From a virus, in the IMG/VR virus record IMGVR_UViG_3300031669_000043, positions 1-50,164 of that record: 50,164 nt of DNA. One strand, 5' to 3'. Made by a program: the position numbers and the translations under genes. Position 1 is the stretch's first letter. The number at the start of each line of letters is the position of its first letter. The notes beneath the pieces are model-generated. The model did no database searches and was not told the origin of the DNA. It saw only the letters and a program-made list of their open reading frames with translations. Positions 9,193 to 33,555 of this stretch are shown piece after piece.

Positions 9193-10023
9193 ATGTACCT
9201 GATCGCAGAGTGCGGAATAAACGGAAATGGCAGCGAGGAACTTGCGAAGCTGATGATTCGGCACGCGCACGAAGCTGGCTTTGACGCTGTGAAATTCCAA
9301 AAGCGCAGCCTTGAGCAATGCTATACCAAGGAATTTCTCGATTCTCCGCGCGAGTCACCGTGGGGAAAAACGCAGCGGGCGCAGAAGGAGGCGCTTGAGT
9401 TCTCGCGGTTGCAGTACACCCTGATCGACGCTTACTGCAAGGAATTGGGTGTGGCGTGGTCGGCGTCAGCCTGGGACTTGGATTCTCAGGAATTTATTCA
9501 CTCGTTCAATGTTCCGTTCAACAAAGTGGCGTCACCAATGCTCGGTAACTGGCCGCTATTGCGGAAGATCGCCAGCGAGCGCAAGCGCACCTTCATTTCT
9601 ACCGGCATGAGCACGCTGGCCGAAATAGACGAAGTGGTTGCGCTGTTCCGCAAGGCCGATTGCCCGTTCGAGTTGATGCACTGCAATTCGACCTATCCGA
9701 TGCCGGAAGATCAGGCGAACCTGAACTGCATTCCGATGCTGCGCGATCGGTACGGGTGTGAGGTCGGCTACTCGGGCCATGAAACCTGCCTCACGAAAGT
9801 CTGCGTTGCTGCGGTTGCTCTCGGGGCGAGTTCAATCGAGCGCCATATCACGTTGGAGCGGGCGATGTACGGGAGCGACCAAGCCGCCTCAATCGAAACA
9901 CACCATCTGCGGGATTTCGTCGAAACGGTGCGGGCGATTCCTGCGATTCTCGGAACGGGGATCAAGGACGTTACCGAAAGCGAATGGCCGGCGCGGAAGA
10001 AACTGCGGGTAGAAGTCGCATGA
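9193..10023 (+). CDS. NeuB-like nonulosonic acid synthase without SAF domain
   Basis: 276 residues of the NeuB TIM-barrel: LIAECGINGNGSEELAKLM at the N-terminus, DAVKFQKR, ISTGMSTLAEID, the metal-ligand segment MHCNSTYPMPEDQANL, GYSGHE (usually GYSDHT) and GASSIERHITL. NeuB enzymes condense phosphoenolpyruvate with an N-acetyl sugar to make sialic, legionaminic or pseudaminic acid. The protein stops right after the barrel (ARKKLR), where normal enzymes of ~340 residues continue into a C-terminal SAF (antifreeze-like) lid. GGGAGG lies just upstream of the ATG. First gene of the sugar cassette. Confidence 0.88.
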   Translation: MYLIAECGINGNGSEELAKLMIRHAHEAGFDAVKFQKRSLEQCYTKEFLDSPRESPWGKTQRAQKEALEFSRLQYTLIDAYCKELGVAWSASAWDLDSQEFIHSFNVPFNKVASPMLGNWPLLRKIASERKRTFISTGMSTLAEIDEVVALFRKADCPFELMHCNSTYPMPEDQANLNCIPMLRDRYGCEVGYSGHETCLTKVCVAAVALGASSIERHITLERAMYGSDQAASIETHHLRDFVETVRAIPAILGTGIKDVTESEWPARKKLRVEVA

Positions 10024-10718
10024 ACGTCGTTTGCATAATCGGCGCTCGTTCTGGCTCCAAGGGCGTTCCGGGGAAAAACATTCGCCACTTGTCCGGTCAT
10101 CCCCTGCTCGCTTACTCAATCCGTTCGGCCCAGGAAGCGGGCATTGCCGAAATCGTCGTATCGACCGATTCAATCGAATACGCCAGCATCGCCAAAAAGT
10201 ACGGTGCGCGTGCGGTCTTGAGACCAGATGCGATTTCTCAGGACAATTCGACCGATTTCCAGTACATCGCTCACGCGATTTCGACGTTTGACCCTCCTGC
10301 GGATTTGATCGTCCACCTTCGGCCGACTACACCTCTGCGAGACCCGCTGTTGATCCAAGGGGCGGTCAATGATCTGAAAGCGTGCGAGTCTGCAACGGCT
10401 TTGCGGTCCGTGGAGGAAATGAGCGAGTCTGCGTGGAAGTGCTTCGAGATATTTTCCGGTAAGCTGATCGGATTGGGCGGGGAGGCTTCGCTGGATCAAT
10501 TCAACGATCCGCGTATGGAATTCAAAAAGACATTCAGGCCGAACGGCTACGTCGATGTGATTCGCACGTCAATGATTTACAAGGGGCTTCTTCACGGCGA
10601 TGCGGTTCTCCCGTACATCACGCCAGTCGTTACCGAAATCGACACTGAGGAAGATTTTGAGTTTGTGCAGTATCAGGCCCGCAAGCATCCTGAGTTGGTG
10701 CGGGCGTTTTTCCCATGA
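10020..10718 (+). CDS. NeuA-like CMP-nonulosonate cytidylyltransferase
   Basis: 232 residues. The nucleotide-binding loop reads IGARSGSKGVPGKNIRHL near the N-terminus, followed by VVSTDS and LRPTTPLRDP, the set of motifs of CMP-N-acetylneuraminate synthetases and close relatives. The enzyme would activate the acid made by the NeuB-like protein with CTP. Length is normal for the family. ATGA overlap with the NeuB-like gene. Exact sugar specificity cannot be read from the sequence. Confidence 0.88.
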   Translation: MNVVCIIGARSGSKGVPGKNIRHLSGHPLLAYSIRSAQEAGIAEIVVSTDSIEYASIAKKYGARAVLRPDAISQDNSTDFQYIAHAISTFDPPADLIVHLRPTTPLRDPLLIQGAVNDLKACESATALRSVEEMSESAWKCFEIFSGKLIGLGGEASLDQFNDPRMEFKKTFRPNGYVDVIRTSMIYKGLLHGDAVLPYITPVVTEIDTEEDFEFVQYQARKHPELVRAFFP

Positions 10719-12067
10719 GCGCATATTCTTTTTCGCGTGAGTCTCGGGCGGTGCCGTTTGTGAACACCGAGCACAGACACATTCACACCGAAATTCCGGC
10801 GCCTGGGGCGAAGGAAATCCTTGAGCGTTTGGATGTAGTCGAGTCCAGATCAATGCACGGCCAATTGCCGATTGTGTGGGATCATGCTTTAGATCACTAC
10901 GTAGCGGACAATTGCGGAAATATGTTTCTGGATTTCACGTCCGGTATTTTCGTTGCGAACGTCGGGCATTCAAATCTGGCGGTCGTGGAAGCGGTGCGGG
11001 AAGCAATGAATATCGAGCCGCTTCATTCCTACGCATACGCTACCGAAATCCGCGCCAAGTATCTCGAACGTCTAACGCAATGGTCCGGTTTCGAAAAAGC
11101 CTTCCTGCTATCGTCTGGAACTGAGGCGACTGAAGCGGCCTTGAAGCTCATTCGGATGCGCGGCCAAAAGCTCGGAAAACGGAGACCGGGAATTCTCTGC
11201 ATCGACGGAAACTGGCACGGTCGGACGATGGGCGCGCAGTTGATGAGTTCCAATGCCGCACAAAAGGCGTGGATCGGTTTCGACGACCCGAGCATTACCC
11301 ATTTTCCGTTTCCTACGCAGGAAATTCTGACTATCCGCCAGCAGACAGCGGCCGAGTTTTTCCGCGATTGGTTGCCGCGGATTCTGGCGGCGAAGGGGAT
11401 TGATGCGCGCAGGGACTTCTGCGGAGTGATGCTTGAGGCTTTCCAAGGGTGGTCGGCGTGGTTCTATCCTCCCGATTTCGTCCAAGAGATTGAAAAGTGG
11501 TGCCGGGAAAACAGTCTCCTGCTGTGCTTTGACGAAATGCAGGCAGGATTCGCCAGGACAGGCCGGAAGTTCGGTTATGAGCACTACGCGGTCAAGCCTG
11601 ACCTGATCTGCGTCGGCAAGGGCATGGGCGGCGGATTGCCCCTTTCCGGCGTTCTGGGCAGGGCTGAGATTCTCGATCTGCCGGAAGTCGGTAATATGTC
11701 GAGCACGCACGGCGGGAATCCGCTTTGCTGCGCGGCCGGTCTTGCGGTGATTGACGAAATCGAGCGGCTGGATTTGGTGAACGAAACGGCGAGAAAGGAA
11801 ATGATCCTTTTCCCGGCGTTGGCGAATTTGCGCCTGAGTTGCTGGAGCCGAGTAACCGGCTTCTGGGGGCATGGCTTGATCGCAGCGGTGCATTTCGATT
11901 CTGCGGAACTGGCAAGCCGTGTTGCCGAGCGGTGTATGGAGAAGGGCGTATTGGTGGTGCATACGGGGCGCGAGAGTATCAAACTCGGGCCTCCGCTTAC
12001 AATTCCAGATGCGGCGTTGATCGAGGGCGTCGAGGTCATCGCTGAGGCGATAAAGGAACTGGCGTGA
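10715..12067 (+). CDS. class III PLP-dependent aminotransferase
   Basis: 450 residues with normal family features: SSGTEATEAALKL at 133-145 (phosphate-binding), FDEMQAGFARTG from 272 (PLP aspartate D273) and the Schiff-base lysine in CVGKGMGGGLPLSG (K302). Glutamate-1-semialdehyde and acetylornithine aminotransferases share this fold. In a NeuB/NeuA cassette it most likely aminates a sugar or a side-chain precursor, but the substrate is unknown. Coupled by ATGA to the NeuA-like gene. Confidence 0.87.
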   Translation: MSAYSFSRESRAVPFVNTEHRHIHTEIPAPGAKEILERLDVVESRSMHGQLPIVWDHALDHYVADNCGNMFLDFTSGIFVANVGHSNLAVVEAVREAMNIEPLHSYAYATEIRAKYLERLTQWSGFEKAFLLSSGTEATEAALKLIRMRGQKLGKRRPGILCIDGNWHGRTMGAQLMSSNAAQKAWIGFDDPSITHFPFPTQEILTIRQQTAAEFFRDWLPRILAAKGIDARRDFCGVMLEAFQGWSAWFYPPDFVQEIEKWCRENSLLLCFDEMQAGFARTGRKFGYEHYAVKPDLICVGKGMGGGLPLSGVLGRAEILDLPEVGNMSSTHGGNPLCCAAGLAVIDEIERLDLVNETARKEMILFPALANLRLSCWSRVTGFWGHGLIAAVHFDSAELASRVAERCMEKGVLVVHTGRESIKLGPPLTIPDAALIEGVEVIAEAIKELA

Positions 12068-12504
12068 TGCTCGGATTGCGTCATGTCGGCATTGTCGTAT
12101 CTGACCTGAATGAAGCTATCGGGTTCTATTGCAGCTTGCTCGGTTTTCAGCACGTTCAAAAAGCGTATGAGTTCGGACATTCTCTCGATTCGATGCTTGC
12201 GCTTGATGGAGCGAAAGTAACCACGGTAAAACTGATTGCGCCGAACGGCGGCATGATCGAGTTGTTGAAATTCGATGAGCCAGGGAGCTCTCCGGTAGGC
12301 CGCGCGATTTTCGACCTTGGCATTTCACACATTGCGATCACGGTGCAAAACTTGGACAAGGAATATCAGCGGTTGAAACTGTGTGGCGTGGAGTTCGTTT
12401 CCGCGCCTGTGCAATCTGGGGCGGCGCGGGTTGCGTTCGCTATCGACCCGGAGGGGAATCGAGTCGAGCTGGTTCAGGATGTTACTTTTCCAAGGGCGGC
12501 GTGA
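12067..12504 (+). CDS. VOC-superfamily metalloprotein (glyoxalase/epimerase-like)
   Basis: 145 residues in two beta-alpha-beta-beta-beta modules. The expected metal ligands are in place: H6 (LRHVGIVV), E65 (MIELLKF), H88 (SHIAITV) and E134 (NRVELVQ). Members include glyoxalase I, methylmalonyl-CoA epimerase and dioxygenases; an epimerase or isomerase step in sugar synthesis is plausible but unproven. The stop of the aminotransferase overlaps the ATG (TGATG); a GTG three bases earlier is an alternative start. Confidence 0.83.
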   Translation: MLGLRHVGIVVSDLNEAIGFYCSLLGFQHVQKAYEFGHSLDSMLALDGAKVTTVKLIAPNGGMIELLKFDEPGSSPVGRAIFDLGISHIAITVQNLDKEYQRLKLCGVEFVSAPVQSGAARVAFAIDPEGNRVELVQDVTFPRAA

Positions 12505-13202
12505 AAGTTTGTAAGAAATGTGGCGGGACTGATTTTGTGCCTAGCGGGTATTGCAGACCGTGTGCAAAAGTGCGTGTTGCTAAATGGCAAAAAGAGCATC
12601 CAGAGAGAGGTATAGCGGCGTCTAAAAAGTGGCGCGAAGCGCATCGAGAGAAATCGAGAGCAAACACAAAAAAATGGCAAGAAAAAAATAAAGAATATCG
12701 CGCTGAGTATGGGCGCAAGTGGAGAGAGGAACATCAGGAAGAACATAAAGCTGCAAAAAAGAAGTGGCGTGAAAAGAACAAAGATAGACACGAGCAATAT
12801 CAAATAGCGTGGGAAACAGCGAATCGCAAGCGTCGTAGTGCCGGCCGTAAGGAATGGCGAGAACAGAACAGGGAGAGAGATCGTAAAAATTTAATTGAGT
12901 GGGCAAAAAAGTATCCCGATAGAGTTCGCATCAAAGCGCAGAACAGAAGGGCGAAAAAGAAAAGTAATGGCGGCAGTCTGTCGAGAGATATAGTCTCAAA
13001 ATTACTGCAATTGCAAAAAGAGAAATGCGCGATCTGCCGCGTTCCGCTTAATGGGGAGTACCATCTAGACCACATATTGCCTTTAATCCTCAAGGGCAGA
13101 AATGAAGATAAAAATATGCAATTACTTTGTCCTCCATGTAACCTGTCTAAGTCGAGCAAGCATCCTATAGAATTCATGCAATCGAGAGGGTTTCTATGTT
13201 GA
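12501..13202 (+). CDS. HNH endonuclease, copy 2 of 3 paralogues
   Basis: 233 residues, GTG start overlapping the VOC stop. An N-terminal zinc knuckle (CKKCGGTDF...CRPC) is followed by several short repeats of the KKWREKN/RKWREEH type, a basic helical array likely to bind DNA, and then a full HNH domain: KCAICR, YHLDH, GRNEDKNMQLLCPPCN and HPIEFMQSRGFLC. It lies between two sugar-cassette genes and overlaps the next start by seven bases, so it looks like an insertion that kept translational coupling. AT-rich compared with its neighbours. Confidence 0.85.
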   Translation: MKVCKKCGGTDFVPSGYCRPCAKVRVAKWQKEHPERGIAASKKWREAHREKSRANTKKWQEKNKEYRAEYGRKWREEHQEEHKAAKKKWREKNKDRHEQYQIAWETANRKRRSAGRKEWREQNRERDRKNLIEWAKKYPDRVRIKAQNRRAKKKSNGGSLSRDIVSKLLQLQKEKCAICRVPLNGEYHLDHILPLILKGRNEDKNMQLLCPPCNLSKSSKHPIEFMQSRGFLC

Positions 13203-13999
13203 GCGGCTTATCCCAAATCAACGTTGAGTTGACTTCCCGTTGTTCTAAGAAAACGGCCTGTTTTATGTGCGGTCATCAATCGGCGGTCGTCAATCCTCTG
13301 TTGAATTTTGGCGATATGGATTTTGCTCTTGTCGAGTCAATAGAGCGGCAGATTGGCGCAGGGGTTATCGTGAGTCTGCACAAAGATGGAGACCCAGTAG
13401 ATTATGAGAGATTGGGAGACGTGCTCCGCGTGTTAAAAAAGCACCCTATTTCTGTGGTCACGCATGGCGAACGTCTGAACGAAAAAGCGGCAGAAATTAT
13501 AGGTCTGTGCACCACGGTAACTTGCAGCGTGATACCGAACGACCCGGACAGGGAGATACAGTTAGAGTCGCTGCGCGGATTCCTCGCCAAGAAAGGCGCT
13601 CGGGCGCCGATGGTGCAGTTGAAATTTGTCGGGATCGTACAGAATCCTGAACCTTATCTAAGCCTAGGATTACCCGTTATAGGGCGTGCCCTACATTCAA
13701 AAAAAGGCAATTGGAACTATTACAAAATCGACCCGATCATTCCAGAGGTCCGCGTGTGCCTCGATTTCCTCGGCCGGCCGACGGTCGATTGGAAGGGCAA
13801 TCTCTACAATTGCAATCGGTTGGACGTAAAAGGCGAAGGACTGCTCGGGAACTTGAACGAAAGTACGCTAGAGGCGCTATGGAACGGTCCCGAGCGTGCC
13901 AGGATGCTTCGGGCGCACTTGGCGGGGCGGCGGCAGGATGCTAACCCGTTGTGCGCTTCCTGCCAATTCTACGGGGTCAGCACGCCATCGGGCGGTTAG
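13196..13999 (+). CDS. radical SAM/SPASM-domain protein with unusual cluster motif
   Basis: 267 residues. The N-terminus INVELTSRCSKKTACFMCGH supplies three cysteines (C16, C22, C25), the position of the radical-SAM [4Fe-4S] motif, but spaced C-x5-C-x2-C and not C-x3-C-x2-C. A SPASM-like tail has C188, C206 and C-x2-C at 253-256 around WKGNLYNCNRL and EALWNGPERARM. I remember similar proteins in phages and bacterial surface-polysaccharide clusters. Likely a radical-based modification of a sugar or peptide; substrate unknown. Last gene of the cassette. Confidence 0.8.
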   Translation: MLSGLSQINVELTSRCSKKTACFMCGHQSAVVNPLLNFGDMDFALVESIERQIGAGVIVSLHKDGDPVDYERLGDVLRVLKKHPISVVTHGERLNEKAAEIIGLCTTVTCSVIPNDPDREIQLESLRGFLAKKGARAPMVQLKFVGIVQNPEPYLSLGLPVIGRALHSKKGNWNYYKIDPIIPEVRVCLDFLGRPTVDWKGNLYNCNRLDVKGEGLLGNLNESTLEALWNGPERARMLRAHLAGRRQDANPLCASCQFYGVSTPSGG

Positions 14000-14616: not shown

Positions 14617-15345
14617 TTACTCCTTGGGTTTTACTACCATTAAGGCAAGTGCCATTGCTGCGCGGTACTGTTTTTCGTAGGCGCTTGATTTGTGCGTTTT
14701 GGTAACAGCGGCAGACAATTCCGATTCAGAACCCGAAAAGCATCCGGTCGTGAACCGTATGCCGATTTTCGCGTCAGCGTGAACCGTCAGTTGATCCTTA
14801 CGCGAACCGATAGGGCCGACAAAGAAAAAGTCGGCATCGCCGGACACCCGCGCATTGCCGGACACCTGCGCACCGCCGGACACCCACGCATTGCCGGACA
14901 CCTGCGCAGTGCCGGACACCTGCGCACCGCCGGACACCCACGCATTGCCGGACACCCACGCACCGCCGGACACCCACGCATTGCCGGACACCTGCGCATT
15001 GCCGGACACCCACGCATTGCCGGACACCCACGCATCGCCGGACACCTGCGCATCGCCGGACACCCGCGCATTGCCGGACACCTGCGCATTGCCGGACACC
15101 CACGCATTGCCGGACACCCGCGCACCGCCGGACACCCACGCATTGCCGGACACCCACGCATCGCCGGACACCCACGCATTGCCGGACACCCACGCATCGC
15201 CGGACACCCGCGAAAGATTCTTGTCGCTCTCGATCCATCCGCCAAGTTCTCCTTTTGCGATAAGACCGAACGAAACGAGCGCGCGAATGCGTTTTAACGT
15301 AACTCCGCAAAATACTTTTGTGTCTCCGGTAAATTCATATTTCAT
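14617..15345 (-). CDS. hexapeptide-repeat beta-helix protein, phage family
   Basis: 242 residues. A conserved head (MKYEFTGDTKVFCGVTLKRI and GELGGWIESDKNLS) is followed by 21 tandem hexapeptides of the form VSG-(N/D/G)-A-(W/R/Q) at residues 47-172, and a tail with VGPIGSRKDQLTVHAD and GCFSG. The repeats would stack as a left-handed or similar beta-helix. I know this architecture from many phages, without a defined function. CAGGAG upstream of the ATG. Repeat number may vary because each DNA unit is 18 bp and keeps the frame. Confidence 0.78.
   Translation of the reverse strand: MKYEFTGDTKVFCGVTLKRIRALVSFGLIAKGELGGWIESDKNLSRVSGDAWVSGNAWVSGDAWVSGNAWVSGGARVSGNAWVSGNAQVSGNARVSGDAQVSGDAWVSGNAWVSGNAQVSGNAWVSGGAWVSGNAWVSGGAQVSGTAQVSGNAWVSGGAQVSGNARVSGDADFFFVGPIGSRKDQLTVHADAKIGIRFTTGCFSGSESELSAAVTKTHKSSAYEKQYRAAMALALMVVKPKE
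14830..15207 (-). repeat. 21 tandem 18-bp repeats coding for hexapeptides
   Basis: Each unit is close to GTGTCCGGCAATGCGTGG on the minus strand, with variation mainly at the codons for residues 4 and 6. Because the unit is a multiple of three, all other frames stay open too, which makes spurious long ORFs on both strands here. Expansion or contraction by recombination or slippage would change the length of the helix without frameshift. Confidence 0.92.
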
Positions 15346-23627: not shown

Positions 23628-24278
23628 ATGAAAACTTGCAGGAATTGCGGAACGCTGTTTGAAACGCGATGCAAAAAATGCTTTAACGCATACCAAAGAA
23701 AATGGAGCAAATATAAAGCGCTCGGCCTTAAGGTTCCTAAAAAGAACAGGCCAGTAAAAGAGGTTTGCAATAAATGTGGAGGAACGGATTTATATACGGA
23801 TGGGCATTGTCGCGCTTGTAAATTTGAATACAGGAAAAAATGGTATGTAACCAATAGAGAAAAGCAAATCGACAAGGCCAGAAAAAATCGTAGTGACAAC
23901 AAGGAGAAAGTAAGGGAAAGCAAAAGACTATATTATGCCGAAAACAGAGAAGCACGAATGGCCTATCACAAAAAATGGTTGTCGGAGAACCCTGAGAGAA
24001 ATCGTATATATCTATTAAACAGGAGGGCCAGAAAGAAAAGTAGCGGAGGAAAGTTGTCCCCTGGATTGGCGGAAAGGCTCTTGGCGCTTCAAAAATGCAA
24101 GTGCGCGGTATGCAGAAAGTCTCTAAAAGACGGATATCATTTGGATCACATGATGCCGCTAGGTTTACAAGGCAGGAACGAAGACAGGAACATGCAATTG
24201 CTTTGTCCTCACTGCAATCAAAGCAAGCACGACAAGCATCCGATTGATTTCATGCAATCGAGGGGATTTTTACTATGA
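23628..24278 (+). CDS. HNH endonuclease, copy 3 of 3 paralogues
   Basis: 216 residues. It carries two zinc knuckles in a row: CRNCGTLFETRCKKC (like copy 1 at 5586) and CNKCGGTDLYTDGHCRAC (like copy 2 at 12501). A basic helical array and an HNH domain follow: KCAVCR, YHLDH, GRNEDRNMQLLCPHCN and HPIDFMQSRGFLL. GGAGG precedes the ATG. It lies in a 95-base gap after the terminase and overlaps the J-domain gene by four bases. AT-rich relative to its surroundings. Probably a homing endonuclease. Confidence 0.85.
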   Translation: MKTCRNCGTLFETRCKKCFNAYQRKWSKYKALGLKVPKKNRPVKEVCNKCGGTDLYTDGHCRACKFEYRKKWYVTNREKQIDKARKNRSDNKEKVRESKRLYYAENREARMAYHKKWLSENPERNRIYLLNRRARKKSSGGKLSPGLAERLLALQKCKCAVCRKSLKDGYHLDHMMPLGLQGRNEDRNMQLLCPHCNQSKHDKHPIDFMQSRGFLL

Positions 24279-24895
24279 GCTTGTACGAAGACTTGGGCGT
24301 TCACAAGGACGCTCCGAAAGCAGAAATAAAGAAAGCCTACCGCAAGAAGGCGATGAAGCTGCATCCTGATCGAAAGGGTGGAGACCCGGAGAAGTTTCAC
24401 GCCATTCAGAGAGCTTACGATGTTCTCAACGACGACGCGCGCAGAGCCCACTACGATGCGACTGGCGAGGAGGGTAAGGCAGATAAGCAGGGCGCTTTGA
24501 TTCAGCGGCTTGCGGCCTTGTTTATGCACTTCGTCGAGACTGCGGACGTAGATCATGCCGACATTATCGTGCTGATGCGACAGGCGTTGCTTGATGGAAA
24601 GAACAAGACTCTCATTGCGTTACAGCAGCAGCACAAGAAAATCGAGCGGTACGAGCGAACGAAAAAGCGGCTCAAGAAAAAAGGCGACGGTGAAAACCTG
24701 TTGGCGCAATTGATTGACGGACAGATCAGCATTGTCCAAAGAGGCATCGAACTCGGCAAATCCGAAATCGGCGTGGTCGAGGAATTGATTAAGATGGTGG
24801 ACGGGTATTCGTATGCGGCCGACGCCGGAAGTCAGTACGCGACCATGCAGGGGCTTGCTGGAATAGCGTTTGGCCCCGGAGTGTGGCAGCGATGA
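24275..24895 (+). CDS. J-domain (DnaJ-like) protein
   Basis: 206 residues. An N-terminal J domain: SLYEDLGVHKDAPKAEIKKA, the HPD motif at 30-32, and FHAIQRAYDVLND. The rest is helical and charged (RYERTKKRLKKK) without zinc or substrate-binding DnaJ domains. J proteins stimulate host DnaK. Placed among packaging genes, it could recruit DnaK to head assembly or terminase. Coupled to both neighbours by four-base overlaps. Confidence 0.85.
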   Translation: MSLYEDLGVHKDAPKAEIKKAYRKKAMKLHPDRKGGDPEKFHAIQRAYDVLNDDARRAHYDATGEEGKADKQGALIQRLAALFMHFVETADVDHADIIVLMRQALLDGKNKTLIALQQQHKKIERYERTKKRLKKKGDGENLLAQLIDGQISIVQRGIELGKSEIGVVEELIKMVDGYSYAADAGSQYATMQGLAGIAFGPGVWQR

Positions 24896-25815
24896 TCGGC
24901 GCCGTCTGCCCGCTGTGCCATGAACTGACCGGAGACGTTCTTGCAAGCACGCTGCGCCGTGGCGTCGGAACGGTTTTTCATTGCTCGAAGTGTGACCTTG
25001 GGTTTCTGGTTGGGGCGATGCGAGAAGGCTATTACCATCGTGAGTACCGCGATACGGTCAATCACAAGGCCGAAGGGGGCGAGACGACACCGCGGGAGAT
25101 ATTCGATGTGTATTCGAGATATCAGGGCGGGCGTTTGGCATTTGTTCGACCGAAAATGGAATTCGGCGGTTCAATCCTTGAGATCGGCGCGAGCGCAGGG
25201 CAGTTCATTACCGGGTTCGGCCAGTGTCGCCGCTGCGCTATAGAGCCTGACCCGCGTTGCTGCGCCTTCATGCAGGCAGCGGGAATCGAGACCGATGCAA
25301 ACTATCTGAAGAACTCACGATTCTACAACGAAAAGTTTGATGTTGTCTGTGCGTTCCAAGTGCTTGAGCATGTCGATGAGCCAAGATCGTTCCTCTCGGA
25401 AGTGAAGCATGTCCTGAAACCCGGTGGCACGGCGTTCATCGAAGTACCGAACCTATATGATCCGTTGCGATCGGTGTGGGGCATTCCCGAGTACGAGAAA
25501 TTTTACTTTCACGCGGACCACCTATTCTATTTCTCTTGGAAGTCGCTGGTGAAGTACGCAGTGAAGGCCGGATTCACAAAGCCGCAAGTATTCTTCACGC
25601 AGGACTATTCGTTGCTCAATCACATCCACTGGCTCATGAACAAAGGCCCGCAAGCCGACTGTCACGTTGGCCTAGGGCCGGTGAAGTTCGAAGGCAAGGA
25701 CTCGGGCATGGCGGCGTGGCTGTCGCATAAGATGTCCGCGTTGAACGAGGAATACATTTCCATGCTGGAATCGACTGGCGAGACTTCGAATTTAACTCTC
25801 GTCTTGACCAATTAG
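24892..25815 (+). CDS. class I SAM methyltransferase with N-terminal zinc site (sugar C-methyltransferase-like)
   Basis: 307 residues. CPLC at 6-9 and CSKC at 31-34 form the zinc-binding start typical of sugar C-methyltransferases, followed by SAM motif I ILEIGASAG (95-103), then FDVVCAFQVLEHVDEPRSFL and LKPGGTAFIEVPN. Related enzymes methylate nucleotide sugars. Placement in a head-gene block is unusual. It could belong functionally with the NeuB/NeuA cassette and the DUF115 protein, which is inference. Confidence 0.78.
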   Translation: MIGAVCPLCHELTGDVLASTLRRGVGTVFHCSKCDLGFLVGAMREGYYHREYRDTVNHKAEGGETTPREIFDVYSRYQGGRLAFVRPKMEFGGSILEIGASAGQFITGFGQCRRCAIEPDPRCCAFMQAAGIETDANYLKNSRFYNEKFDVVCAFQVLEHVDEPRSFLSEVKHVLKPGGTAFIEVPNLYDPLRSVWGIPEYEKFYFHADHLFYFSWKSLVKYAVKAGFTKPQVFFTQDYSLLNHIHWLMNKGPQADCHVGLGPVKFEGKDSGMAAWLSHKMSALNEEYISMLESTGETSNLTLVLTN

Positions 25816-29613: not shown

Positions 29614-30633
29614 ATGCCAGTTTTGAACACGGGTTTAGTCCCCGGCGGAAGTGTCGGTGCCGAGCTAACCGCCGCAACACGCAGAGCAGTCGTCCCGGCC
29701 CTGTTCGTCCAGATCTACAAAGCCACTCCGATGCTGAACCTGCTTTTTGGCACAGCCCAAAGAGCGAAAGGCGGCATGTCCCAAGTCACCGTTCCGGTGC
29801 AGGGATCGTCGTTCGTGAACTTCGCATGGACGGACTACTCGGGCGGCTTCCCTCAACCAGCGGTGCAGCCTGGAATGCAGAACGCGGAATTCAACCTCTG
29901 CGTTGGCGTGGTTCCGATCTCCTTTATGGGGATGGAAGCCCTGATTCAATCCTCGGAAGCCATCGTACCGCTGATGCGGGCTAGAATGGCCGATGCGAAG
30001 ACTGTCGCTGTCCAGGCCATGTCCACAGCGCTTTTCACCAACTCCTCGAACCTGCCGAACGCTTCTCAGATCATCAATGGTCTGCCGCAGGCTTTCGATG
30101 ACGGGACCAACGTCAACAGTTACGGCGGAATTTCCAGGACTGCCAGCCCGTTCTGGAAGTCAACGCTGGTTACCGCAGCCGGCGCAGTCAATACCCGTTC
30201 CGCGATGCTCTCCTACCTCGTCCAAACTACTGCCCTGAACGGCGGCGAAGCTCCTGACTTCTGCGTGATGAGCCCTTCGGACTGGACGACTCTGATGCAG
30301 GACTTCCTGACGCTGGAACGGTTCAACACCACCCCGGCCTCGAAGTACGGCAAGGACGAATCGGTGAACGCCGGCTTCCGTGGTCTGATGCTCGGTGACA
30401 CCCCGTTCTTCATGGACCCGTTCTGCCCGAAAGGGACGGCGTACATGCTGAACACGAAGTATTTCGCCGCCTACGTCTCGGAAGACGCTCCGTTCGCCTT
30501 CTCTGGGTTCTACTCGGCAATCCCGAATCTGCAAATCGCAAATGTGGGGGTCGTGATCATAGCTATGCAAACGGTCTGTGCCAAGCCCGTTAGTGGGATG
30601 CAAATTTCTGGAATAACAGGCGGCGCGTTCTAG
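29614..30633 (+). CDS. major capsid protein
   Basis: 339 residues. Assigned by position after a scaffold-like gene, size, strong ribosome-binding site (AAGGAG) and low-charge, Gly/Ala/Thr-rich sequence. Segments such as RAVVPALFVQIYKATPMLNL, QVTVPVQGSS and a central DFCVMSPSDWTTLMQDFLTL (peripheral-domain-like) fit an HK97-fold capsid. It would form the shell. I cannot name the subfamily. Confidence 0.78.
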   Translation: MPVLNTGLVPGGSVGAELTAATRRAVVPALFVQIYKATPMLNLLFGTAQRAKGGMSQVTVPVQGSSFVNFAWTDYSGGFPQPAVQPGMQNAEFNLCVGVVPISFMGMEALIQSSEAIVPLMRARMADAKTVAVQAMSTALFTNSSNLPNASQIINGLPQAFDDGTNVNSYGGISRTASPFWKSTLVTAAGAVNTRSAMLSYLVQTTALNGGEAPDFCVMSPSDWTTLMQDFLTLERFNTTPASKYGKDESVNAGFRGLMLGDTPFFMDPFCPKGTAYMLNTKYFAAYVSEDAPFAFSGFYSAIPNLQIANVGVVIIAMQTVCAKPVSGMQISGITGGAF

Positions 30634-30666: not shown

Positions 30667-31794
30667 ATGATGTTAGGCGGAAGCGGAATCGGCCTCGGTC
30701 TGAGGGGGAAAGTAACCAACGCACTGACGTTGCCGGCGGGGGAGACTTACATCGTCCCTGCGGGGAACTACGCCGTCAATCTTGGTCCATACACTGAGCT
30801 TCAATATCTCGATCCTGTTACCGGGATTTGGAGAACTCAGTTATGGCCGGGGCAAGACGGGCAATTCGCAATCGACGGCGCGAACTACCGCCTTGCCAAT
30901 CTCACCGGCTGCCCCGTAGCCGCTGTCATCACGACCGCGCTTGCGACTGGCGCAGCGACCGGCATCGGCGTAACTGCAACGCTCATGACCGTCACGGCTT
31001 CGTCCGGTTCTTCGACCTGGTGCCCGATTGTCGGCGGTGCGCTTTCGCTGACCTGCGTTACCGGCGTCACCGGATCGAGCGTCGGTGCTGGCTATCTTTT
31101 CCCGCCAACAGCGATCATTTCGGCGCCGCCTCCCGGCGGTCTTCAGGCGACGGCTCACGTTACCGGAATTCCGACGACCGGCGCGTTGCTTGCCGCTCAA
31201 GTCATCATCGACAACCAGGGCGCGGGTTATCCTGTAGCCTCGACCGGGATTTCGACGGCGACCATCACCTTCGTCAACGACCCTCGGGACACCGCAGGCA
31301 GCGGCGCCACTGTTCGCCTTGGCGCGACCGGAACCGGGCAGTTGACGGCTCTGTATCCGCTGACCCAAGGCGTTCCGCTGACGGGGGCTCCGACGCTGGC
31401 GTTCGGCGTGGGCGCGGCTGGCGCTACGTCGATCATGAACTTCACCGTGACTGCGATTGCCTCTGGCACGACGAACACGCAGACCTACGCCACGGGCACA
31501 ACCCCAATCGTTACCACCATCGGGAACATCGTTTCGGCTACACCTGCCTGGACGAATCCGATTCACGAAAAAGCCTCCACCTTCCCGCGGCCGGCGCGGA
31601 TTCAGGCGGGTCTGGCTTCGAACGTCGTTACCTCAACGGGCGCCGTTGTCGAAGATGGCGGGTTCGGGATTCAACAAGCCCCGAGCGCGATTGTCATTGG
31701 GCAACTGCTGGCGATTACCGGCGTGACGCTGGGGACCGCTCCGCTGCTTACGATTGGCGGCGTGACGGACACAAGTTGGCTGCAGCCGATCTAA
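30667..31794 (+). CDS. 375-residue Gly/Thr/Ala-rich virion protein (decoration or head fibre candidate)
   Basis: N-terminal part: LTLPAGETYIVPAGNYAVNL and ELQYLDPVTGIWRTQLWPG. The remainder is low-charge beta-rich sequence with several AGYPV/GAGY-like turns, similar in style to the insert in the gene at 32668 (GNYAGTPTVVITGPGSGA). It follows the major capsid gene with a good AAGGAG, so a capsid decoration, vertex or head-fibre protein is likely. Surface exposure also makes it a possible glycosylation substrate for the next gene. Confidence 0.6.
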   Translation: MMLGGSGIGLGLRGKVTNALTLPAGETYIVPAGNYAVNLGPYTELQYLDPVTGIWRTQLWPGQDGQFAIDGANYRLANLTGCPVAAVITTALATGAATGIGVTATLMTVTASSGSSTWCPIVGGALSLTCVTGVTGSSVGAGYLFPPTAIISAPPPGGLQATAHVTGIPTTGALLAAQVIIDNQGAGYPVASTGISTATITFVNDPRDTAGSGATVRLGATGTGQLTALYPLTQGVPLTGAPTLAFGVGAAGATSIMNFTVTAIASGTTNTQTYATGTTPIVTTIGNIVSATPAWTNPIHEKASTFPRPARIQAGLASNVVTSTGAVVEDGGFGIQQAPSAIVIGQLLAITGVTLGTAPLLTIGGVTDTSWLQPI

Positions 31795-31808: not shown

Positions 31809-32663
31809 ATGGAACAGCCTCAAGGGTATGTCGATACGGTGCTCGATGATGGTCGTGTTACGCCTCTGACGATTCAGACGTACACGCTCATCGAGCAAGG
31901 GCATCTAGCCAAAAACATCGTCGAGAACCTTGGGAGGGACATTCCAAGGTTCGTCAATCGTGTCGGGCTGGGTCAGATCAGGCACGCCCCTCTTGCGATA
32001 GTCTGCGCGGGGCCGACTCTCGTTGAAACAATCGACCGGGTACGCGACTTCGAAAACGTACTCGTCTGCGGATCTGCTCACGATTTCGTTGTTCGTCAAG
32101 GCATCATCCCGAACTACGCCGTGGTGTGCGACGGCGGCAAAGATGACAAGGGCAATCTGTCACTGCCTCAGAAAGATACGACCTACCTCATCGCCTCTCA
32201 GTGCGATCCGAGTTTGTTCGATCACCTGTCTGACTACCATGTGGAAATGTGGCACTACCGCGGCCAAGCTGCGCCCACAATAGAGGAAGAAGGCAGGGTG
32301 CTTAACGGGGAGCCGTCCTTGGCGTGGGGGTCAAGCGTCGGCATCGTTTCGATATCGCTTGCGATGCACCTTGGATTTCAGCACATCCATTTCTTCGGTC
32401 TTGACTCGTCCTACGGAGACCACGGGATGAGCCATCACTGCTGCAAAATAGCAGGCAGCATGGAGTACAAGAAAGTGCCAGTCAAAGTCGGAGAGAAAGT
32501 TTTTATTTCCGACTTGGCATTGATGGAACAGACCAATCAATTTTTCCGTTTTATTGAAACGCAGCATCAATTCATCCACGGCACTATTCACGGCAACGGT
32601 TTAATCGCTGAAATGGCGAGACAAGGAGAGCCTGGGCTAGAGAAGTACATCAGCCTCGCATGA
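31809..32663 (+). CDS. DUF115/MptE-like protein (Maf glycosyltransferase-type fold)
   Basis: 284 residues. Diagnostic segments: LAIVCAGPTLVETIDRV (nucleotide-binding GPSL-like loop), VLVCGSAHDFVVRQGIIPNY, VVCDGG, SSVGIVSISLAMHLGFQHIH and FFGLDSSYGDHG. This is the DUF115 core found in archaeal MptE (a pterin pyrophosphokinase) and in Maf flagellin glycosyltransferases, which transfer sialic-acid-like sugars to protein. Located between a surface-protein gene and the head connector. With NeuB- and NeuA-like genes in the same genome, protein glycosylation of the virion is an attractive inference. Confidence 0.75.
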   Translation: MEQPQGYVDTVLDDGRVTPLTIQTYTLIEQGHLAKNIVENLGRDIPRFVNRVGLGQIRHAPLAIVCAGPTLVETIDRVRDFENVLVCGSAHDFVVRQGIIPNYAVVCDGGKDDKGNLSLPQKDTTYLIASQCDPSLFDHLSDYHVEMWHYRGQAAPTIEEEGRVLNGEPSLAWGSSVGIVSISLAMHLGFQHIHFFGLDSSYGDHGMSHHCCKIAGSMEYKKVPVKVGEKVFISDLALMEQTNQFFRFIETQHQFIHGTIHGNGLIAEMARQGEPGLEKYISLA

Positions 32664-32667
32664 AAAC

Positions 32668-33555
32668 ATGCTTGCTAAATATCTTTCAAGAACGTCGATC
32701 CTCCTACACGACGCTTCGTTTCAATTCTATCCGCAAGCCAATGTAATCTCGTTCATCAACGAGGCGAGGGGACAGGTAGCGGCCGAAGGACAGTGCATCA
32801 AAGTCCTGCCTCCCGGAACGAACGGAATCGCCTCGATTACCGTCAACACTGGCGGGAATTATGCGGGAACTCCTACGGTCGTCATCACCGGGCCTGGAAG
32901 CGGCGCCGTAGCGACTGCGCACATGACCGGGAGTGCCGTAACCAGCATCACCGTTGGCACGGCTGGAAGCGGTTATGACAACACCACGGTTATCAGTTTC
33001 ACAGGCGGGACTCCCACGGTTCAGGCCACCGCAACCCCTGTCATCAACTGCGTCAACACCGTCGCCAATCAGGAAATCTACACCTTCTCCTCTGTCAATA
33101 CGCTTGCTCAACTGACTGCGGGCGTCGCATCAATCCTATGGGTTTCGTCTGTAGCCGTTTCTTGGGGCGCGTTGAAGCCGACTCTGAGGCAGTGGAATTG
33201 GGACGACCTCCAAGCCTACATCCGGTCCTATCCCGTCGTCTCCGGTCAACCTGCGATGTTCGCTCAATTCGGCCAAGGCGAGGGCGGTTCGATTTATCTT
33301 CAACCCGTTCCAACTCAAGCCGCGGCGATGGAGTGGAACTGCGTCTGCACGCCGATTGATCTTGTTGATGACACGACGGCTGAGGCTATTCCTTATCCGT
33401 GGACCGATGCCGTCCCTTACTTCGCTGCGTATCTAGCGTTCCTGAGCGGAAGAAGGCCAATCGAAGCGAAAGGGATGTACGACATTTACGACGCGACGAT
33501 GAAACGCTCGCGTTCCCAGAGCGAGTCTAGCTACATACCAGATTTCTACGCATAA
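32668..33555 (+). CDS. head-tail connector (adaptor) protein with beta-rich insert
   Basis: 295 residues. The N-terminus (SRTSILLHDASFQFYPQANV; ISFINEARGQVAA) and C-terminus (PYFAAYLAFLSGRRPIEAKG; MYDIYDATMKRS) are helical, as in P22 gp4/T7 gp11-type adaptors. An inserted Gly/Thr-rich domain follows residue ~50 (TVNTGGNYAGTPTVVITGPG and a second similar unit). It would sit under the portal. It overlaps the nozzle gene by one base. Confidence 0.68.
   Translation: MLAKYLSRTSILLHDASFQFYPQANVISFINEARGQVAAEGQCIKVLPPGTNGIASITVNTGGNYAGTPTVVITGPGSGAVATAHMTGSAVTSITVGTAGSGYDNTTVISFTGGTPTVQATATPVINCVNTVANQEIYTFSSVNTLAQLTAGVASILWVSSVAVSWGALKPTLRQWNWDDLQAYIRSYPVVSGQPAMFAQFGQGEGGSIYLQPVPTQAAAMEWNCVCTPIDLVDDTTAEAIPYPWTDAVPYFAAYLAFLSGRRPIEAKGMYDIYDATMKRSRSQSESSYIPDFYA

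Follow-up and report, generated by a model that had tools for sequence, protein, structure and literature searches.

A Maf-type DUF115 protein encoded beside the capsid gene of uncultured tailed phages, and a possible phage-made sugar on the virion

The IMG/VR virus record IMGVR_UViG_3300031669_000043, analysed here whole (50,164 bases; the window), carries among its head genes an open reading frame at 31809–32663 that encodes a member of the DUF115 family (PF01973, also called MptE-like). The frame starts with ATG on the plus strand and encodes 284 amino acids with no internal stop, and the product matches PF01973 over residues 32–203 (E = 6.7e-17; 62.2 bits, cut-off 34.6). It begins 14 bases past the gene at 30667–31794 and ends 4 bases ahead of the connector gene, all on one strand (Table 1). 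Three orthologues from the window's group are 55–58% identical at the protein level, with a non-synonymous divergence (dN) of 0.26–0.46, so the frame does not owe its existence to chance; because synonymous divergence (dS) is saturated or above 1.5, the same values place the gene under purifying selection. In the closest relatives the capsid protein is 84–89% identical, and the DUF115 protein thus evolves faster than the capsid protein. Around the gene, promoters and terminators gave no signal clearly over chance level. The DUF115/MptE-like gene that an original prediction, made from the letters of this record, had placed in a virion operon is therefore confirmed, as is its position between the 30667–31794 gene and the connector; the accompanying label of a ‘capsid-associated surface protein’ for the upstream neighbour found no support, as its structure model was mediocre (predicted local distance difference test, pLDDT, 72.5) and returned no fold match at a Z of at least 8, with weak viral matches only.

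Seventeen phage DUF115 homologues, all of which match PF01973 (17/17), were aligned, and the alignment was used for an AlphaFold (AF2) model of the window protein and for a profile search of PDB sequences. The model (pLDDT 90; predicted template modelling score 0.90) had as its top Foldseek match the Maf flagellin glycosyltransferase of M. magneticum (5MU5; E = 2e-10), with GT29 sialyltransferases and the M. jannaschii 6-hydroxymethylpterin pyrophosphokinase MptE (HPPK; 8SD5) ranking lower. Structure comparison with Maf had been proposed as a check on the prediction, and in VIA-align the model superimposed on 5MU5 with Z 21.7 over 221 residues (2.8 Å), against Z 15.3 over 191 residues for 8SD5 and Z of about 10 for GT42 and GT29 sialyltransferases. 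The profile behaved in the same way, retrieving 5MU5 across the catalytic domain at E = 5.5e-11 and 8SD5 at E = 0.024 with 63 residues aligned. Motifs common to the phage proteins and Maf run across the domain in the profile alignment (GxGPS, CGxA, GIxP, G(T/S), LGF, FGxD and HH), and the nucleotide-binding-fold motifs G68, G88-SxHD-92, D108, G174, D199, H210 and Q241 are conserved. The NCBIfam PseD (Maf) model was matched by 11 of the 17, and that of the 3-deoxy-D-manno-oct-2-ulosonic acid (KDO) transferase WaaZ by one; the window protein itself scored 25.7 bits against PseD (E = 4e-6), below the 670-bit cut-off of a model that describes a 640-residue protein.

Maf enzymes transfer nonulosonates activated with cytidine monophosphate (CMP) to serine and threonine residues of flagellin (PMC9298399, PMC11339370). 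The window protein contains their catalytic domain (PF01973, MAF_flag10) according to Pfam, structure and profile. Of the three-domain Maf layout, the N-terminal Rossmann-like and C-terminal helical domains are missing and the model aligns to Maf residues 244–504 alone, and at 284 residues the protein is therefore a catalytic-domain relative rather than a full Maf. It shares with the flagellin enzymes (M. magneticum Maf, C. jejuni PseD/Maf4, C. botulinum Maf) a catalytic fold and motifs over 221 residues and a link to CMP-nonulosonate genes, but differs in its size, in its head-module location, in having no flagellin acceptor and, in one phage group, in often occurring as two copies. With archaeal MptE it has PF01973 membership and the general fold in common, whereas the structure and profile matches are weaker and the phage gene is set in a head operon in the company of CMP-sugar genes. 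These results uphold the claim that the DUF115 core is a Maf-type catalytic region, and the window protein is very probably of Maf type rather than a pterin kinase. Uncultured-phage proteins named MptE-like in BFVD match the model at TM scores of 0.7–0.8, and for them the name is probably wrong too.

Relatives of the window were collected by a capsid-protein search (25 records) and further DUF115 records by scans with alignments; a direct scan of viral contigs with the single DUF115 protein gave no matches, the records surfacing after the capsid-based relatives had supplied alignments. In about 30 records of uncultured phages, DUF115 lies between the major capsid protein and the connector. The closest capsid relatives that reach that far have it at this position; among the more distant, the 30667 homologue is followed directly by the connector with no DUF115 in between, and such relatives, sharing the same head genes, constitute a natural control. 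In a second group the capsid proteins are 21–25% identical to that of the window, so that two lineages have DUF115 adjoining the capsid gene. Here the order is capsid protein, a protein of about 190 residues, DUF115, a 256-residue protein, a second DUF115, a 131-residue protein and the connector, and the slot often holds two or three DUF115 genes. The head module was the location of DUF115 in every record where placement was possible. No cultured phage with DUF115 was found by tblastn with three queries against 50,697 phage records, and a pattern scan of bacterial genomes and prophages found none of the phage type. At two loci (L080, 7914–11048; L082, 7740–9612) the slot also houses a PhyH-like protein and further genes, among them one pair of proteins of about 300 residues that look glycosyltransferase-like by eye and have no Pfam match. 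Divergent DUF115-like genes (L132–L168; tblastn E of about 1e-20) follow the capsid gene in phages of about 40 kb that have no NeuB.

The NeuB- and NeuA-like enzymes that the original prediction had described upstream are borne out, at 21–22.6 kb from the DUF115 gene. The NeuB keeps family residues such as K34, H196, E216 and H218, whose roles we take to be those in NmNeuB, and it ends after the NeuB domain with no SAF domain; against the PseI equivalog (NCBIfam cut-off 340 bits) it scored 163 bits, and the corresponding protein of relative G033 scored 371. The best NCBIfam match of the CMP-sugar synthetase is PseF. The order neuB–neuA–aminotransferase–VOC occurs in bacteria as well, and in a Desulfobacteraceae metagenome-assembled genome it is joined by a SPASM protein and a relative of the window's methyltransferase. 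For the window cassette, ‘sialic acid’ is to be read here as an acidic, probably nonulosonic, CMP-activated sugar. SAF-less NeuB proteins were seen in the window (9193–10023) and at L034 (3817–4701) and L184 (7750–8583), the genomes being the window, G026 and G042, and this domain has many relatives among bacteria, SAR11 included.

Table 1. Genes of the DUF115 slot and of the sugar cassette in the window
Feature	Coordinates	Strand	Evidence and remarks
NeuB-type synthase, no C-terminal SAF domain, 276 aa	9193..10023	+	PF03102 E 1.5e-66, whole model (241 positions)
NeuA/PseF-type CMP-sugar synthetase, ARSGSKGVPGKN motif	9984..10718	+	PF02348 E 2e-21; PseF TIGR03584 E 6.3e-30, below cut-off
Class III aminotransferase	10715..12067	+	PF00202 E 1.7e-80; after neuB-neuA in bacterial loci and G003
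VOC/glyoxalase-like protein	12064..12504	+	PF00903 E 2.3e-18; adjoins aminotransferase, conserved
SPASM (radical-SAM-like) protein	13196..13999	+	PF13186 E 7.7e-9; in G003, G098 and the Desulfobacteraceae cassette
S-adenosylmethionine (SAM) methyltransferase, possible cassette member	24883..25815	+	PF13489 E 3.4e-16; between terminase and portal; 28% homologue (E 3.6e-19) in the L209 cassette
Major capsid protein, possible acceptor	29614..30633	+	PHROG 9953 major head protein E 1.1e-23
Beta-rich virion-module protein, 375 aa	30667..31794	+	Adjoins capsid gene whether or not a relative has DUF115; Ser+Thr 21.1%
DUF115/PF01973 protein, 284 aa, proposed CMP-sugar protein O-glycosyltransferase	31809..32663	+	Maf-type catalytic domain alone; Pfam, NCBIfam PseD, AF2, 5MU5 match
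Connector/neck-type protein, downstream edge of DUF115 slot	32668..33555	+	Weak PHROG tail, connector and head matches

Cassettes of other composition were found in relatives. That of G033 (L063, 6449–12620) is of the pseudaminic-acid type and comprises PseB-like (384 bits), short PseC-like (about 208 residues), full-length PseI (371 bits, above the cut-off), WbuZ, CMP-transferase and GNAT genes, along with a WbuX amidotransferase and a Pse-associated methylase that both exceed their NCBIfam cut-offs; WbuX and WbuZ are its acetamidino genes, and no separate hydrolase (PseG) was identified in it. Its gene content points to an acetamidino-pseudaminic-type acid as the product, and the G055 cassette reads alike. 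Most steps of the bacterial pseudaminic acid pathway (PseB, PseC, PseI, PseF, PseA/WbuX) are thus present in G033 and G055, but here they are phage-borne, with a capsid-linked DUF115 in the same genome, and the window cassette is shorter and different. In G003 the neuB–neuA–aminotransferase–VOC–SPASM set, interrupted by a DNA methylase gene, is encoded on the opposite strand between the portal and the next head gene (L004, 2826–8748), and DUF115 retains its slot although the cassette sits elsewhere than in the window; the two parts therefore move separately yet co-occur. An unrelated phage, G098, has NeuB and SPASM together (L190, 7959–16805) and NeuA-like and aminotransferase-like genes inside its portal/scaffold region.

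Co-occurrence was counted by comparing 21 records of at least 27 kb with window-type DUF115 and 18 DUF115-less relatives. NeuB was present in 13/21 of the former (the window, G003, G026, G031, G032, G033, G035, G036, G042, G044, G053, G054 and G055) and 0/18 of the latter (Fisher p = 3e-5, kinship ignored), and at lengths of at least 45 kb in 10/10 against 0/4. CMP-transferase genes are present in all records with NeuB, and the base rate of NeuB is 3 in 50,697 phage records, one of the three being named as a bacterium. The expected association of DUF115 with NeuB/NeuA is thus present, and in two phage groups. Eight DUF115 records of this length have no NeuB (G028, G030, G038, G040, G041, G043, G045 and G056). 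Since G056 is part of a phage 99.99% identical to G055 over their common stretch, and since the CMP-transferase of G041 lies at the extreme end of its record, at least two of these absences are likely to be effects of fragmentation.

According to the model we favour, NeuB would condense a precursor with phosphoenolpyruvate and NeuA would activate the product with CMP, while the aminotransferase, VOC, SPASM and perhaps methyltransferase proteins would tailor the sugar. The DUF115 protein, for which Maf-type transfer is well supported by sequence profiles and the predicted structure, would then move the CMP-activated acidic (nonulosonic-type) sugar to serine or threonine of a protein, the sugar being in most cases phage-made; co-expressed with head proteins, the enzyme would most likely act on a protein of the virion, either ahead of assembly or while it proceeds, altering the particle surface for receptor use, defence or immune recognition. 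Catalytic activity, O-linkage to protein, a virion acceptor, the exact sugar and the purpose are the parts of this scheme that we infer. On balance, a Maf-type enzyme probably modifies the virion with a phage-made donor. That uncultured tailed phages possess a widespread, exchangeable system for glycosylating their virions, which would combine their own CMP-nonulosonate pathway with compact Maf-type transferases beside the capsid gene and apply their own bacterial sialic acid to the particle, has in our view a little better than an even chance of being right.

The protein next to the DUF115 gene had been suggested as the acceptor on account of its serine and threonine content, but 30667 homologues contain 20–26% of these residues in phages with and without DUF115 alike, and this pointer was rejected. 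Judged by gene position alone, the capsid protein or its neighbours would be the first candidates. The 30667–31794 and 32668–33555 products both have beta repeats of the GxGY...P/APTV type, as in PHROG virion structural and baseplate families.

Several observations weigh against virion modification with a phage-made donor. Support for it is computational throughout; the phage protein lacks the N- and C-terminal domains of Maf; the precursor-making steps (dehydratase, DegT aminotransferase) were not seen in the window; and the present data pinpoint no acceptor. The Fisher p overstates the evidence, as related records are not independent, and most records are fragments or of unclear completeness. 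Neither NeuB nor CMP-transferase was found in nine records with divergent DUF115 (0/9), and PF01973 matches above the cut-off were lacking in 11 further viral records whose NeuB resembles that of the window. Finally, neither NeuB nor CMP-transferase occurs in six DUF115 records of 30–42 kb (G028, G030, G038, G040, G043 and G045). DUF115 in phages devoid of sugar-nucleotide genes had been named in advance as evidence that would count against the proposal, and these records partly fit that description; they do not settle the matter, since the records may be incomplete, G045 encodes a further nucleotide-sugar dehydratase, and the host-type donor CMP-KDO is accepted by Maf enzymes besides CMP-nonulosonates (PMC9298399, PMC11339370), so that NeuB-less phages may take CMP-sugars from the host.

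The same records, together with the one phage member that matches WaaZ, are what a more general role for host donors would predict: a Maf-type transferase would act on a virion protein with host CMP-KDO or a host nonulosonate, and the NeuB/NeuA cassette would serve another end or widen the choice of donor. We consider this unlikely, given that NeuB/NeuA accompany DUF115 in all records of at least 45 kb and are found in none of the DUF115-less relatives tested. Less probable still is that cassette and DUF115 alter the surface polysaccharide or flagella of the host during infection, for phage exclusion or a changed host, and leave the virion untouched; the neuB–neuA–aminotransferase–VOC–SPASM set does stand beside glycosyltransferase and flippase-like genes in bacterial loci, but the phage cassettes showed neither a flippase nor a polymerase gene, and DUF115 is in the head module wherever it could be placed. 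A catalytically dead DUF115 serving the head as a structural component or chaperone would suit its position and small size, yet is very improbable, as its nucleotide-binding-fold motifs are conserved and relatives with the same head genes do without it. That the protein is a pterin pyrophosphokinase of MptE type, the function implied by its names in Pfam and databases and favoured by a common family and the 8SD5 fold match, is the most improbable of all, Maf being clearly nearer by structure, profile and PseD matches, and no folate or methanopterin genes having been noticed nearby.

Virions of phages are generally assumed to carry no glycans, mycobacteriophages being the main exception, and to our knowledge neither a phage-made CMP-nonulosonate nor a Maf-type enzyme has been described in the glycosylation of mycobacteriophage virions. 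A literature search, outside which most subscription papers lay, gave no report of either serving a virion and nothing relevant on DUF115/MptE-like proteins in phages, phage nonulosonate synthesis or phage-encoded pseudaminic acid on virions. In mycobacteriophage Che8 and its relatives, phage-encoded glycosyltransferases place glycans on capsid proteins (Freeman et al, 2023, cited in PMC11256854); the likeness to the window phage lies in this arrangement, which for the latter is a proposal. If virion modification with a phage-made donor is correct, a sialic-acid-like sugar both synthesised and attached by the phage itself would alter the view of particle surfaces, receptor use and immune recognition, compact natural Maf-type enzymes would become available as tools, and the name ‘MptE pterin kinase’, frequent among phage proteins, would be corrected.

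Three further genes of the window were noted. An HNH/endonuclease VII-like gene (12381–13202) overlaps the VOC gene within the cassette, a YdcK beta-solenoid/bactofilin-like protein is encoded on the minus strand just downstream of it (14617–15345), and a DnaJ-domain protein (24275–24895; PF00226, E = 9e-21) lies between terminase and portal.
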